A stretch of DNA of 64,000 bases, from assembly GCA_963768165.1 (NCBI GenBank), contig CAVYHJ010000003.1, positions 186,001-250,000 of the forward strand, in the 5' to 3' direction. The notes under the pieces were generated by a model, which was not told the DNA's origin, did not search any database, and saw only the letters and a program-made list of their open reading frames with translations. The position numbers and the translations under genes are program-made. The stretch comes from CAVYHJ01 sp963768165 [NCBI: uncultured bacterium]. GTDB taxonomy: Bacteria > UBP4 > UBA4092. Below, one piece after another: positions 38,199 through 47,103 of the stretch (positions are counted from its first letter, which is position 1; each line of letters begins with the position of its first letter).

Positions 38199-38272
38199 GA
38201 TGGAGTTGGAATTTAATGAGAATTAGCACGGGGGTATAAAAGCCCGTCCCAGATAGCCAGGGTGTTGACGGA
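38199..38272 (+). pseudogene. DpnI-like 5' end remnant (copy 1)
   Basis: The segment reads ATGGAGTTGGAATTTAATGA and, after a one-base loss, encodes ARGYKSPSQIARVLTEEC. This matches the first ~27 codons of the DpnI-like gene at 43696 (MDLQFDIALAEGYKSKSQIA). Homology stops at GTGTTGACGGAGGAGTG. It is a relic of the gene start only. Confidence 0.65.
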
Positions 38273-38304
38273 GGAGTGCAAGTCTGTAATGGAGCGCAGA
38301 GAAT

Positions 38305-42488: not shown

Positions 42489-42565
42489 ATGAATTTTTAG
42501 TTTGATATAGGTCTTAGGAAGGGGTATCGGAGTAAGTCACAGATTGCTCAGGGTGTTGAATTTAT
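42489..42565 (+). pseudogene. DpnI-like 5' end remnant (copy 2)
   Basis: The reading MNF-stop-FDIGLRKGYRSKSQIA parallels MDLQFDIALAEGYKSKSQIA at 43696, with CAG (Gln) changed to TAG and the homology lost after about codon 25. It lies directly upstream of the promoter of the next gene, so it is a truncated relic of a DpnI-like start. Confidence 0.7.
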
Positions 42566-42579
42566 TTCCCATGCAGATA

Positions 42580-42608
42580 TTGACTTTCGATATTGAAAGT
42601 GTCATACT
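42580..42608 (+). promoter_or_regulatory. Promoter of the unknown three-gene cassette
   Basis: TTGACT (42580-42585) and CATACT (42603-42608) with a 17-base spacer. The predicted transcription start, about 7 bases after the -10 box, coincides with the second ATG (42615), so the mRNA may be leaderless. Confidence 0.5.
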
Positions 42609-43022
42609 ATGAATATGAAAAAGGTATCTATTGAATCCGTTCTGGGCGCCACCTATCCTAAAGGAAGCGAACAAATAACCATCTTTATTCCGGAAAAAGA
42701 TAGAAACGGAAAAGCGATTAACCAAAAGAAATGGACGGATAACACTCTGGGTATGCTGGGAACATTATTTCGAGGTGCCACGGCTTTCCCTCCTGGAAAA
42801 GGAGTCTGGAGAGATGACTCCAAGGGTGGTAAGTTATTGTTTGAAAAGACAGTGATGGACATCAGTTATACTACTCATTCGGAACTTATGAATAAATTGA
42901 AAGGACTCCGGGAATTTCTTCATCGTTTTGGACGGGAAACTCATCAAGGAGAAGTTGGATTAATTATTAATGACACATATTATGGTATTTCTACCTACGA
43001 TACCCAGGAGGAGAATCTATGA
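42609..43022 (+). CDS. Conserved hypothetical protein, 137 aa
   Basis: No named family recognised. The sequence is compact and enzyme-like: GATAFPPGKGVWRDD is conserved-looking, followed by EKTVMDISYTTHSELMNKL and RFGRETHQGEVGLIINDTYY. It lacks a ribosome-binding site but sits right at a promoter, and a start at 42615 (MKKVSIESVLGATY) is equally likely. It overlaps the next gene by 4 bases (ATGA), so the two are translationally coupled. Confidence 0.75.
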   Translation: MNMKKVSIESVLGATYPKGSEQITIFIPEKDRNGKAINQKKWTDNTLGMLGTLFRGATAFPPGKGVWRDDSKGGKLLFEKTVMDISYTTHSELMNKLKGLREFLHRFGRETHQGEVGLIINDTYYGISTYDTQEENL

Positions 43023-43393
43023 AAACAAACAGAAAGAATAAGCAGAATAAAATAGCTCGAATATTAGGCGCAGACAGGGTTGTCCATCTTAAAAGTCATG
43101 GGAAGAAGGGTCCTTTGGGCTGGTTACAACTGGCTCAAGAAGTTCAAGACAGTCTTCAATCCACCGGTGGCAGACCCAGTGTTCCAGAACGAGATATAAA
43201 ACGATTGGTTCCCTTTAATGAGCATATATGGAGTCAGCTATCCAGAAAAGCAAATACTTTCAGTCGCAAGGGGAATAAGATTTCCCCGGCTCAACTGGCT
43301 GCGTTTTTGGTTGAGAAAGGATTTGCAGAGCTAAACGCCATCTCATTAAAGAAGGGCACTAAAATTTCTATTTTAGCTACGACTTCCAAGTAA
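43019..43393 (+). CDS. Hypothetical basic protein, 124 aa
   Basis: No family recognised. A Lys/Asn-rich N-terminus is followed by GGRPSVPERDIKRLVPFNEH and SRKGNKISPAQLAAFLVEKG, which resemble a DNA-binding or antitoxin-like helical protein, but this is only an impression. The coupled start (ATGA) follows a perfect AGGAGGAG. It is the second gene of a small cassette. Confidence 0.75.
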   Translation: MKTNRKNKQNKIARILGADRVVHLKSHGKKGPLGWLQLAQEVQDSLQSTGGRPSVPERDIKRLVPFNEHIWSQLSRKANTFSRKGNKISPAQLAAFLVEKGFAELNAISLKKGTKISILATTSK

Positions 43394-43423
43394 TATAGAT
43401 TCGCAGTCCTTTAGAGGTGTTGT

Positions 43424-43576
43424 ATGGAAAAGAAAATTAAAGCGGTAAAATTGATGCGGGATATCCGTTTGAAGTTGGGAAAGAAGTATTCCCACTCTTC
43501 CAAAACAGAATTACAAGAATTAAAAGAGAAATTTGGTCATTTACGGAAGAAAACGTCCCCCTCTCATTCCCAATAA
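43424..43576 (+). CDS. Small basic protein, 50 aa
   Basis: ATG at 43424, TAA at 43574-43576, with AGAGGT 7 bases upstream. The product (MEKKIKAVKLMRDIRLKLG ...) is Lys-rich and looks helical, similar in size to type II antitoxins. It is the third member of the cassette beginning at 42609, 30 bases after the second. Confidence 0.6.
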   Translation: MEKKIKAVKLMRDIRLKLGKKYSHSSKTELQELKEKFGHLRKKTSPSHSQ

Positions 43577-43695
43577 CAGGTTTTACCTGTAAATAGCCTA
43601 ACCAATACGGGTATAAAACCCTACACTACCTGTAGTGTAACCCTTTATGGGTGTATACATTGACTTCCCCACCCTCTCTTGATCTAATGAAAGCG

Positions 43696-43965
43696 ATGGA
43701 TTTACAGTTTGATATTGCTCTGGCTGAGGGGTATAAAAGTAAGTCACAGATAGCCCGTGTGTTGACGGAGGAGTGGGGGTCGAAGAATCTTTATTGCCCT
43801 TCCTGTCACACCAACCAACTCCAACGCTATCGGGATAATATGAAAGTCGTGGACTTTGTCTGTACCCACTGCCGGGAAACTTATCAAATGAAAAGTACCA
43901 GTCTCCCCATCGGCAATAAAATCATGGATTCGGCGTATCTCCCCATGATTTGCTTTTCCCCCTAA
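43696..43965 (+). pseudogene. DpnI-like methyl-directed restriction endonuclease, N-terminal part
   Basis: Starts MDLQFDIALAEGYKSKSQIA, parallel to DpnI (MELHFNLELVETYKSNSQKA). The treble-clef zinc ligands are present (YCPSCHTNQ and VCTHCRETY), followed by QMKSTSLPIGNKIMDSAY, equal to the DpnI ELKSKKG ... INDGAY region. The frame then ends in TAACTCCTAACTCCTGTATC-type repeat sequence. Homology resumes at about 43999 and again at 44550. DpnI cleaves Gm6ATC. The gene is dead. Confidence 0.85.
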
Positions 43966-43998
43966 CTCCTAACTCCTGTATCCTATCTCCTGTTTCAA

Positions 43999-44082
43999 GA
44001 CAACCCCCTCACTCTCCGCGCTCAAAACCTGCTGGTCATCCCCAAATTCTTTTTAACCCTCTCCTGTATCGAGAAAAGAAAA
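43999..44082 (+). pseudogene. DpnI-like gene, middle fragment
   Basis: Reads QDNPLTLRAQNLLVIPKFFL then TLSCIEKRK, which matches the DpnI segment FEVNNFLVLPKQF ... IIQRK. The DNA is continuous with the first fragment except for a repeat-like patch at 43966-43996 and a few lost codons. It ends exactly at AAAAGAAAA, where a 473-bp segment is inserted; the next DpnI residues (PLSPTARRAGW) continue after it. Confidence 0.8.
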
Positions 44083-44114
44083 TAAAAAAGGGCAGACGCT
44101 ACTATCTGCCCTTT
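44083..44114 (-). terminator. Terminator of the small gene at 44224-44424
   Basis: AAAGGGCAGA and TCTGCCCTTT form a perfect 10-bp stem with an 8-base loop, followed on the minus strand by a T run. Confidence 0.85.
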
Positions 44115-44223
44115 GTAGCCTTACATCGTACACTTTTTATCACGTGATAAACCCGTCTACCTAGGTAAGACGGTAAAACATAAATCTTTAGAGACTTTTT
44201 AGTTCAATTATCTGTTCAACTTG

Positions 44224-44424
44224 TTATTCCTTAAATTCGCCTGTTGACGGATCATATTTTGAATCTGTTTTTGAATTGAACCACGGACTACCGTTATCTT
44301 CTTTGTATACTGTCTGATTTGTTTCAGGATCTGAATCTCCGTCGCCAGTTGAGTAAAATAGACGTTCACCATCGCTTGTCCGCCTATCATTACCTTTCTC
44401 ATCTTTAATGTATTCCCTAGACAT
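44224..44424 (-). CDS. Small acidic protein, 66 aa, inside the DpnI insertion
   Basis: Begins MSREYIKDEKGNDRRTSDGE and is rich in Asp, Ser, Asn and Gly. It has a near-perfect AAAGGAGGTG at 7-base spacing and its own terminator, so it is a real expressed unit despite its size. No family recognised. It is the only gene in the 473-bp segment that splits the DpnI-like gene. Confidence 0.7.
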   Translation of the reverse strand: MSREYIKDEKGNDRRTSDGERLFYSTGDGDSDPETNQTVYKEDNGSPWFNSKTDSKYDPSTGEFKE

Positions 44425-44546
44425 TTGATACACCTCCTTTTATTTGGTGTTTAACCTCCTTTCTGTTTATAGTCTATTACTTTAAAATACAAATGTCAAC
44501 AGAAAAATTTATTGTATTAAATATACATATATTTAATAATAATCTG

Positions 44547-44678
44547 GAAAGAAAACCATTGTCTCCTACAGCCCGTCGTGCCGGTTGGGTCGGGTGTAAT
44601 ATTGTCCTGCAACAATTGCCGGAGGATGGAAGATTGGACGTCAGGAAAGAAAAGAACTCATTCCTGACGCAGTTCTAA
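44547..44678 (+). pseudogene. DpnI-like gene, C-terminal fragment
   Basis: Encodes ERKPLSPTARRAGWVGCNIV then LQQLPEDGRLDV, unmistakably the DpnI segment RKPLAPTARRAGWTGCNIDL. The frame ends in a TAA at 44676-44678; the DpnI winged-helix C-terminus is missing. Together with 43696-43965 and 43999-44082 this is one dismembered gene. Confidence 0.88.
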
Positions 44679-44705
44679 AATTACTATATTGATGCTAATT
44701 ATTTT

Positions 44706-44876
44706 CTATTCTGGCTTTCTCGGTCCTTGAGGTGGTGTTGTAGGATTTGGTATTGGGGGTCTTTTTTTAATTGGTCCTTGTTGATCGGGTAATGATCTCG
44801 AAGGTTGAGGGATTATTGTTGGTCTAGGTTTTTTAGGTCCTTGTTTAAAACGCTCATCTGTTAATACTTTTCTCAC
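44706..44876 (-). CDS. Small proline-rich cationic peptide, 56 aa
   Basis: From a GTG at 44876 to TAG at 44706-44708, with AAGGAGG upstream. About a quarter of the residues are proline, and there are three copies of a QGP-x-K motif (QGPKKP, QGPIKK, QGPRKP) spaced by PRPTIIPQPS- and PPIPNPTTP-type linkers. It is basic, with no signal peptide or cysteine. It resembles proline-rich antimicrobial peptides in composition only; it could also be a small ribosome- or SH3-like-binding protein. Confidence 0.6.
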   Translation of the reverse strand: MRKVLTDERFKQGPKKPRPTIIPQPSRSLPDQQGPIKKRPPIPNPTTPPQGPRKPE

Positions 44877-44921
44877 ATTTTCCTCCTTGAAACAAGATTG
44901 TAATATATTTAATGAATTTTG

Positions 44922-45488
44922 TCATGTAATATCATAAATTGTTGTTATATTCCATCCAATCTTCTTAGGAGTCCGGAATAATTTTAGATATTTCAACCAA
45001 TTGTATCCTGCTTTTACATTCTCAAAATGACTATATATTTCTACAATTTTAATTGAATCATCAAGTATAAAATCGTAATGAAACTGATACTTTTCACATG
45101 GTTAATTGGTAATTTTTACAATCTGATTTTTTAAATTCAACTTCAGGCCATTGAATTTCGGTTTCATCATCTTTAACCAGATTTTGTCCTTGGTTTATAG
45201 CATCAGAAAACGTAGTTGATAAAGGCAGTATTCGTACAATACGGGTTTCTGAATAACCTAAAGTAATTAGAACATCCCCAACGTTTGAAATCGTTATGGC
45301 TACATGCAATAAAATTTTTTTGTTTCCAATCTGTCTATGGGTAATATGATGGGTGATATTAGCACGGGGTTTCTTCTGCCTTTTTTTATAAAAAGAATAT
45401 AGCCCCATATACCGCCGAACACAATACCTAGAATTGTAACTATTGATTGGATAATATCAATATTATGTTTATTAAGATATAGGTACAT
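44922..45488 (-). pseudogene. Membrane-anchored protein downstream of the restriction genes, two frameshifts
   Basis: Three overlapping frames make one gene. The first frame (from ATG at 45488) gives a TM helix (IIQSIVTILGIVFGGIWGYI). A shift near 45385 continues with KKPRANITHHITHRQIGNKK and ISNVGDVLITLGYSETRIVR to 45094. A second shift continues as EKYQFHYDFILDDSIKIVEI ... IGWNITTIYDI to a TGA at 44922. Intact relatives would be about 185 residues. The start overlaps the stop of the nuclease gene (TGATG), so it was the third gene of the restriction-modification operon. Function unknown. Confidence 0.7.
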
Positions 45489-46108
45489 CAATCCACCGAT
45501 TCGTAAATTCTTTTGACCAGTTCTTTTCTTGCGTAGAAGGCTCGGCTGATGGAGCCGTGTCCTGCGCCTTTGGTTCTGGCTTGTATTAGAACGCCGTCTT
45601 TTCCTGTTAAACTTTTAAATCCCTGTGTTATTAATTTATTTCTAATGAAATCGTAGTCATCTTTGATTTGTAAGGTGATTTTATCTGTCTTTGAAAAATC
45701 AAAAGGCATTACTTTTATAAGTTCTGCTTTGTGTGCATGTTTTCCATGCCACATCACTGCACAGAAGATTAAAGCTTTTAGTTTAATCCAGCAATGGCTA
45801 TTGAAAAATTCATCCTTGTTTAAATCCTCTGGGGTTAACATTGTAATTGCCATTGTCTCTTTTGGTACGAGAACACCCCTTGCATAATAAAAGCTTACAG
45901 ATTTTACATCAAAAGTTAAACCATTTGGATTTCTTTTGTTGTTATTATTTAACCCAGACAATCTTTCACAAAGTTGACCTTTCCAACCTTTATTTTGTTT
46001 TCCATCTTTAAATGTTGTGATATCCCTCTCATGAGCTAATTCAATTAAATCTTTCCCAATGTACTTATTCAAGTTGGCTATTGCTTGGGGTCTTGTAATT
46101 ATATTCAT
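45488..46108 (-). CDS. MutH/Sau3AI-like restriction endonuclease (probable GATC)
   Basis: 206 residues, the size of MutH. The signature NKGWKGQLCERLSG corresponds to MutH KGWIGVLLELWLG, and TFDVKSVSFYYARGVLVPKE corresponds to VELKTIPVDSLGRPLE; the late ISRAFYARKEL matches the MutH GFYLKKNF region. In MutH, Asp70, Glu77 and Lys79 cut the DNA; here the equivalent acidic positions appear as Asn and Asp, with the Lys conserved, so activity is not certain. It overlaps the methylase by 4 bases (ATGA). Sau3AI and MutH recognise GATC. Confidence 0.82.
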   Translation of the reverse strand: MNIITRPQAIANLNKYIGKDLIELAHERDITTFKDGKQNKGWKGQLCERLSGLNNNNKRNPNGLTFDVKSVSFYYARGVLVPKETMAITMLTPEDLNKDEFFNSHCWIKLKALIFCAVMWHGKHAHKAELIKVMPFDFSKTDKITLQIKDDYDFIRNKLITQGFKSLTGKDGVLIQARTKGAGHGSISRAFYARKELVKRIYESVD

Positions 46109-46975
46109 ATAAATCTAAAGCATTTTAAACGAGTCTTCAAATCGTTTACCGACAAATCCAAATACTTCTTTTCATTATCAATACCAATGAATTTACGTTT
46201 GAGGGAGAGGGCAGAGATGCCTGTAGTGCTGGAACCGCAGAAGGGGTCAAGGATGAGGTCATTGGGATTAGAGGAGGATTGGATAATTCTGTTCAGGAGT
46301 TCCAGAGGTTTTTGGGTGGGGTGTTTGCCGAATTTCTTTTCTTCGGATTTAGGCGCGCCCATCTGCCAGACATTGCGCATTTGTTTATCCCCGTTAATCT
46401 TTTTCATCAACTTGTAATCAAAGGTATGTTTGGTGTATTTGTTTTTGCCCGCCCAGAGGATGGTTTCAGTGGAATGGGTGAAATAACGGCAGGAGAGATT
46501 GGGCGGGGCGTTGTTTTTGTACCAGATAATGTCATTAAGAATTTTATAACCCAATTGTTGGAGGGCAAAGCCGATGGAATAAATGATATGGCTCGTTCCG
46601 CTCACCCAGATTGTGCCATCGGGCTTGAGAAGGCGCTGGCATTGTAATAACCAGCGGAGATTAAAATTATGATTTTCTTCGGCTCCTTTGGATTGGTCCC
46701 ATTTCCCTTTATTGACGGAGACCATCTTTCCGGCATGACAGGTGATACCGTTATTGGATAAGAAATAAGGCGGGTCGGCAAAGATAAGGTCTACACTTTC
46801 CGAAGGCATCTTTTGCATTATCTCAATGCAATCCCCATGGTAAAGAATAATGTCATAGTTTTCATTCGCGTAATATGGGGAAGGTAGATCCGTAGAGAGA
46901 ATATTTTGGGGTGTAATCTTGTCAAATAAACTCTCGATGATCCGATCTTTGATCGAAATAGGAAAATGATCAAGC
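46105..46975 (-). CDS. DpnA-like N6-adenine DNA methyltransferase, 5' truncated
   Basis: Beta-class methylase: motif IV DLIFADPPYFLSNNGITCHA comes before motif I ILDPFCGSSTTGISAL. The block PNLSCRYFTHSTETILWAGK and the GKHPTQKP motif match M.DpnA (M2.DpnII). The coding frame extends upstream of the first ATG (46818) through LPSPYYANENYDIILYHGDC to about 46975, where it meets an AT-rich dispersed repeat; that extension contains no ATG, GTG or TTG in frame. The gene has therefore lost its original start, and the ATG at 46818 would remove only part of the N-terminus, leaving motif IV intact. Predicted to methylate GATC. Confidence 0.85.
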
Positions 46976-47103
46976 CATTTCAGATATCAGATTTTAGATT
47001 TCAGATTTGAGATTGAAAAGACAAGTAGTCCTATATTGGACTGAAGTCCGGAAACCCTCGGCTAAAGCCGGGTAGAATAATTTTTTCTACGGGACTTTAG
47101 TCC
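46976..47103. repeat. Dispersed repeat patch next to the methylase gene
   Basis: 46981-47016 is made of CAGATTTTAGATTT-like units; related units occur at 52020-52060 and 54627-54655. From 47038 there follow the 12-bp palindromes GGACTGAAGTCC, CGGCTAAAGCCG and GGACTTTAGTCC. The IS4-family element is inserted just after the last one. It has no gene. Confidence 0.6.

Follow-up and report, generated by a model that had tools for sequence, protein, structure and literature searches.

A DpnI relic beside a DpnA-like methylase and a MutH-fold nuclease in an uncultured bacterium: a candidate graveyard of two incompatible GATC defences

The window analyzed here is the 64,000-nucleotide stretch of contig CAVYHJ010000003.1 (positions 186,001 to 250,000) from the uncultured bacterium CAVYHJ01 sp963768165, and it raises the question of why a DpnI gene in pieces should lie beside a two-gene pair for a DpnA-like adenine methylase and a nuclease of the MutH/Sau3AI type. 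A DpnI-type nuclease needs a methylated adenine in order to cut GATC, and a cell in which both it and a GATC methylase were active would be expected to cut its own chromosome, the survivors being cells that lost one of the two. The evidence leans modestly toward the stretch holding the dead remains of two GATC defences that could not coexist, shaped by conflict-driven loss in which DpnI went first. A DpnI-type nuclease, together with at least two further copies of its 5' end, would once have been present and would now be dead, and the restriction system alongside it would have comprised a DpnA-like methylase acting on GATC and a MutH-fold nuclease acting on unmethylated GATC. DpnI would have been lost first, through several lesions, and the methylase would later have lost all of its standard starts. 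The nuclease may have been silenced along with it by translational coupling, which is possible because its start overlaps the methylase stop.

The remains of DpnI

The DpnI material in the window is distributed as follows.

43696-44654, plus strand: DpnI gene in pieces, whole extent (three pieces by the DpnI profile)
43696-43950, plus strand: relic piece 1, N-terminal catalytic region and Cys4 zinc ribbon (profile positions 1-85 of 256)
43981-44082, plus strand: relic piece 2 (RAQNLLVIPKFF...), a weak match (profile positions 95-128 of 256, E 1.6e-4)
44463-44654, plus strand: relic piece 3 (...PLSPTARRAGWVGCNI...) (profile positions 96-161 of 256, E 2.5e-15)
42489-42559, plus strand: second DpnI 5' end, preserved as a scrap that contains an in-frame stop (76% over 71 nt to 43690-43960, E 5e-8; repeat family D13)
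38223-38278, plus strand: third DpnI 5' end, also a scrap (LARGYKSPSQIARVLTE) with its upstream codons in a different frame (nucleotide match, and profile E 0.0044)

The family assignment is carried by the first piece, since window positions 43651-43962 match PF06044 (E 7.6e-30, profile positions 1-86 of 183) and the N-terminal part matches the DpnI structure 4esj (E 5.3e-20). The frame of this piece runs into a stop at 43965, next to a short run of repeat-like sequence (43962-43992), and piece 3, which holds the TARRAGWVGCNI block, follows about 400 bp past piece 2, with small open reading frames (ORFs) in the gap. The profile used here has 256 positions and was built from 27 full-length rows, with one gene counted twice (loci L060 and L089), and it finds nothing of model positions 162-256, including the C-terminal winged helix, in the window. 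Judged by its sequence, the DpnI of the window is a relic that covers at most positions 1-161 of the 256-position model, in three pieces: the N-terminal catalytic domain with its zinc ribbon is present, and a full-length gene with the winged helix is absent. At the ExK part of the catalytic D...ExK motif the relic has QMK. The Gln was considered as a further lesion and dropped because two full-length relatives (L110 and L111, both with QLK) share it, and it may be a subgroup trait.

The scrap at 42489, where the region of the original prediction begins, is real; the one at 38223 was absent from that account, and its part 38231-38278 is 87.5% alike over 48 nt (E 8e-12). A further DpnI-like scrap at about 37044 was not counted, being only 60% alike. 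Three DpnI 5' ends lie inside 5.5 kb, and both scraps retain just the first ~20 to 26 codons. Amid the DpnI pieces, positions 42609-43393 hold overlapping ORFs of 137 and 124 amino acids, the first of which matches the phage family phrog_3543, of unknown function (4e-7), and nearby lie NosD-like genes rich in repeats and a transposase of the IS4 type. Viral scans queried with the methylase, the 137-amino-acid ORF, and the DpnI of locus L060 returned no relatives.

The methylase and nuclease frames and their probable target

The second system and the features at its 5' end are these.

45488-46108, minus strand: single-domain MutH/Sau3AI-fold endonuclease of 206 amino acids, full-length frame (Pfam, PDB, predicted model)
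46105-46983, minus strand: DpnA-like (beta class) adenine methylase frame (PF01555, 8.6e-61)
46981-47014, no strand: short A/T-rich stretch with repeat-like letters, abutting the 5' end of the methylase frame
46887-46971, no strand: GATC cluster at the methylase 5' end, five sites in 85 bp, the densest of the window

The nuclease matches MutH in Pfam (1.3e-5) and in a PDB sequence search (3.2e-8), NCBIfam also points to MutH/Sau3AI, with scores below its curated cut-offs, and a profile of 24 nuclease relatives picks up Sau3AI as well. Its predicted model (mean predicted local distance difference test score 86.8) superimposes on MutH with a Z-score of 19.7 over 197 residues and a root-mean-square deviation of 2.6, and on the N-terminal part of Sau3AI with a Z-score of 17.7 over 180 residues; on this model, the nuclease has the MutH/Sau3AI fold. 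It consists of one MutH domain, and both parts of Sau3AI match it. At the catalytic positions of the 24 aligned rows, Asn62 is invariant where MutH has Asp, Lys69 is invariant, and position 67, the catalytic Glu, is Glu in the other 23 rows and Asp in the window. A further difference from both Sau3AI and MutH is that the window nuclease is partnered by an adenine-type methylase. It probably cuts unmethylated GATC. The original prediction had placed a wrecked DpnI 0.8 kb from a MutH/Sau3AI-like nuclease with a DpnA-like methylase, and all three identities are borne out (PF06044, MutH, and PF01555), as is the distance, which we measure at 0.83 kb.

The methylase frame overlaps that of the nuclease by 4 bp, with the nuclease start on the methylase stop, and has both the DPPY and DPF motifs. 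It is open from 46983, and its earliest ATG, GTG, or TTG is codon 56, at 46818. In the predicted structure, codons 1-30 have low confidence and the confident part begins at about codon 31, so that codon 56 sits behind a strand (45-49) and within a helix (52-57) of the well-predicted fold. We conclude from this model that the methylase start has been lost in the ordinary sense, as had been claimed for it, because no ATG, GTG, or TTG precedes codon 56 and codon 56 lies inside the confident fold. It is conceivable, though we think it unlikely, that the pair is alive and still methylates and cuts GATC, using a non-standard start or making a shorter protein from codon 56 onward, and that DpnI alone is dead. 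Both frames are full length and retain the alignment-invariant columns, the nuclease differing at the nearly invariant position 67, and for pneumococcal DpnA both a long and a short start have been described (PMC3573125). Set against this are the 55 codons that lack a standard start, the placement of codon 56 inside the predicted fold, and the outcome of a search for four purine-rich 4-mers between 46800 and 47040, which gave a single match, at 47032, about 50 bases upstream of the methylase frame.

Random placement yields five GATC per 100 bp in 0.3% of trials. The cluster was considered as a conserved switch, and this was rejected because the comparable 200 bp of 70 relatives hold 16 sites against 29.5 expected.

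The target of the pair is best approached through its relatives, which were collected by scanning one genome per species. The neighbours of the nuclease were surveyed in 84 loci, made up of the best 80 of 229 relatives and four phage loci. A DpnA-like methylase adjoins it in 77 of these loci and a Dam-type one in three (L001, L004, and L024); in three more there is a contig edge, and in one (L060) an intervening DpnI. For L004, the Dam-type partner gives about 3e-74 against chains labelled DNA adenine methylase, which we take to be E. coli Dam. In two Endomicrobium loci (L043 and L076), the DpnA-like methylase is split and the nuclease frame is full length. Patescibacteria groups are named in 44 titles among the best 80 of the 229 nuclease relatives. 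Leaving an assay aside, the strongest evidence for GATC is the exchange of DpnA-like for Dam-type partners around a constant MutH-fold nuclease, and GATC as the target of both methylase and nuclease appears well supported, because the nuclease has the MutH/Sau3AI fold and a DpnA-like or Dam-type neighbour. GATC had also been proposed originally as the likely common target, and the fold and these neighbours speak for it.

We regard it as improbable that the pair targets another site and that the DpnI relic is unrelated to it. CcrM, which methylates GANTC, is the best PDB match of the methylase. In a tree of 13 methylase rows, however, a long branch sets a CcrM-like row, 40% identical to the window methylase, outside the others, and the window stands beside an Omnitrophica row, though supports are modest; a methylase of plasmid pSRQ700 is closer, at 53% identity in the alignment and 56% by tblastn. 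That plasmid carries the DpnII-type system LlaDCHI (PMC6458302), which is listed among GATC systems (PMC4190342). Two methylase genes, one of them for a DNA adenine methylase, lie there in a row with a nuclease gene; the window yielded no Dam-type gene corresponding to dpnM, a single blastp search with a phage Dam at 1e-4 giving no D12 match. The exchange with Dam-type partners and the MutH/Sau3AI fold likewise argue against another target. A second point in favor of one comes from Neisseria, in which three gonococci have a DpnIIB-like gene after drg, the dam replacing gene, and gonococcal GATC is nonetheless unmethylated (PMC4269198). In one Neisseria gonorrhoeae record (L183, 2501-3232), that DpnIIB-like methylase has an in-frame stop, which weakens the point and fits the conflict idea.

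DpnI and the pair in other genomes

If the two systems are incompatible, genomes in which they meet should show damage to one or the other, and two samples bear on this. PF06044 is found in five of 79 nuclease-bearing genomes; two of these matches are distant, and the other three are in G040, G069, and G056, which came in through the nuclease scan. The other DpnI genomes came from two draws. In the first, of 384 genomes from the phylum of G040, 19 have DpnI (18 as a full-length frame), 10 have the nuclease (two weakly, at E 5e-11 and 9e-10), and three have both (G040, G168, and G359). The second, of 395 genomes from the phylum of G056, gave nine matches, eight of them true DpnI and seven full length. 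Three genomes were removed before counting: G012 and G018 (distant DpnI-family matches of 29 and 43 bits) and G557 (61 bits, one TGA). The window was also kept out of the tally because it had been selected for its broken DpnI.

In these relatives either partner can be the wreck where the other is intact. Two genomes have a broken DpnI and an intact system: in G040, DpnI is split across two frames and lacks model positions 31-63, and in G069 it has an in-frame stop near codon 203. Three others have an intact DpnI with a damaged pair. In G056 (L060), the methylase ends before the DPF motif and the nuclease is missing 10 to 12 residues at its start; G168 (L143) has a methylase N-terminal piece, then intact DpnI, then a nuclease C-terminal piece; and in G359 (L144), the nuclease that comes after an intact DpnI has no match before model position 36, and a methylase piece was not found on the 3.1-kb contig. 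Conflict between the two systems as a driver of loss is partly supported by these sequences, on small numbers, because truncated parts of the pair flank or adjoin an intact DpnI in three genomes and a broken DpnI accompanies an intact pair in two. When the 28 true-DpnI genomes are scored by their best DpnI copy, that copy is broken in both of the two that have an intact nuclease system and in 1 of the 26 that do not (Fisher p 0.008). Three of the five nuclease matches in these 28 genomes lie within ~0.5 kb of DpnI, each of them truncated.

A real rival is neutral decay in a defence island, whereby DpnI broke by drift or redundancy, the pair came later or independently, and the two are neighbours through clustering in a stretch that gathers repeats, transposases, and scraps. 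The close-set DpnI 5' ends and the NosD-like genes and transposase near them suit such a history, as do two genomes in which DpnI decayed without the system and the convergent genes of the window, which share no slot; the 25 of 26 DpnI genomes without an intact system in which DpnI is intact, compared with its being broken in both genomes with one, and the three truncated nucleases near DpnI are harder to reconcile with it. On balance we consider drift the less likely explanation.

Several observations weigh against conflict-driven loss as we have framed it. In the window, the last DpnI piece and the nuclease stop are separated by unrelated ORFs and the genes are convergent, and the 2/2 count is tiny. 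The two genomes just mentioned are G203, where an intact copy is accompanied by a second, broken one, and G800, in which DpnI is frame-shifted and no MutH-type nuclease was found; G800 also has a methylase frame without DPPY. PF02086 (the D12 class) is present in nine of the 28 DpnI genomes, with DpnI intact in eight of the nine, which would count against strict exclusion if these D12 genes act on GATC; those near DpnI in G104 and G301 were unmatched by the Dam query. In G040, a D12 N-terminal piece lies upstream of the broken DpnI and a methylase C-terminal piece downstream, and in G803 a D12 gene is followed by DpnI. The locus that fits strict exclusion worst is G484, where a D12 frame (its last residues unlike DpnM), intact DpnI, a DpnD-like gene, a RhuM-like gene, and a full-length DpnA-like methylase follow one another, putting three possibly live genes together. 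In L141 and L145, an intact DpnI lies 4 to 5 kb from a full-length methylase of the DpnA-like profile, and strict exclusion would forbid all three loci if all of these genes act on GATC. The genomes are mostly metagenome bins, so that two contigs of one bin (as in G040 and G069) possibly come from different organisms, and single stops or frame shifts in relatives are possibly sequencing errors. Finally, GATC avoidance fails to discriminate between loci that have the system and DpnI loci that lack it: medians are 0.69 in 69 loci with the system and 0.72 in 18 DpnI loci without it (p 0.30), a comparison that omits L156 (whose genome has the system), the second entries of two genomes, the wrecked L060, and loci below 6 kb in both groups.

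In the window itself GATC occurs 104 times against 260 expected (0.40, z -12.3), with GGCC nearly as low at 0.45. We rejected this avoidance as evidence for or against a GATC nuclease, GGCC being similar and the comparison of loci flat. The other 14 palindromic 4-mers are at or above 0.67 of expectation.

Returning to conflict-driven loss, the arrival of the methylating system followed by decay of DpnI is a better fit than the converse, because DpnI carries several lesions and the methylase frame only one. The original prediction of a succession of incompatible systems fares well in one respect, as related loci point to incompatibility as a driver of loss; that conflict rather than drift was the cause here, and the order of events, we infer, and the present silence of the system is likewise a conditional part of this account. 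A broader scenario, which we hold tentatively and rate a little short of even, is that DpnI cassettes and GATC-methylating systems repeatedly overwrite each other across uncultured phyla. DpnI would land in or beside the methylase and nuclease genes of the two-gene DpnA/MutH-fold system, on which little has been written, or Dam-type genes, and returning methylating systems would leave DpnI wrecked; lineages would flip between methylated and unmethylated GATC with a dead gene left by each flip, and the window would record a flip back to methylation and then the loss of the methylase start. In G040, a D12 N-terminal piece lies upstream of the broken DpnI and a methylase C-terminal piece downstream, and in G803 a D12 gene is followed by DpnI.

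A common stretch of ~33 bp lies just upstream of DpnI in L060 (3331) and L139 (5592), 88% alike (E 1e-8), with a weaker counterpart in L148. Its core pattern, with one mismatch allowed, was in none of the other scanned loci. The genes upstream differ between L060 and L139, and the stretch is perhaps the edge of a DpnI cassette.

Known exclusions of DpnI and GATC methylation

The closest parallel is in Streptococcus pneumoniae, where methyl-directed and methyl-blocked GATC nucleases are alternatives (PMC3573125 and PMC12707154), a strain having DpnI or DpnII at one and the same site in the chromosome (PMC3573125). The DpnI locus L139 extends the likeness, as it has a DpnD-like gene (PF14207). 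Unlike those cassettes, the window has convergent neighbours that both appear damaged, and its partner is one DpnA-like methylase with a MutH-fold nuclease rather than DpnM, DpnA, and DpnB. The suggestion of a single slot, as in Streptococcus, is not supported for the window, where the genes are convergent and 0.8 kb apart; in L143 and L060 DpnI does occupy such a slot, between methylase and nuclease.

The second parallel is Neisseria drg, a DpnI relative that is inserted in dam and truncates it in several strains, the dam+ and drg+ genotypes being called mutually exclusive (PMC516771 and PMC4269198). Here too a DpnI relative meets a GATC methylase gene, outside Firmicutes, but at the drg locus the DpnI relative is intact and dam has no restriction partner, whereas in the window DpnI is wrecked and its partner is a restriction system. 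The idea of an exchange outside Firmicutes therefore stands as to the window, which likely lies outside that group, and falls as to novelty, the drg case having been published. On the placement of the window, its NADH dehydrogenase subunit D reaches at most 58% among 58 and 99 genomes drawn from the phylum and the class of Omnitrophota bins, and 52-58% in bins labelled Ignavibacteria, Kapaibacterium, and Deltaproteobacteria. The apparent novelty lies in DpnI having a two-gene DpnA/MutH system for its partner: our searches of open-access papers turned up no description of DpnI inside a DpnA/MutH-type operon, nor of the pair in Patescibacteria.

The survey also indicates a widespread two-gene system composed of a DpnA-like methylase and a single MutH-domain nuclease. 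If our reading is true, conflict between methylation-dependent and methylation-blocked nucleases would shape the content of defence genes beyond Streptococcus and Neisseria, and dead genes beside live rivals would provide a readout of past methylation state in uncultured lineages.

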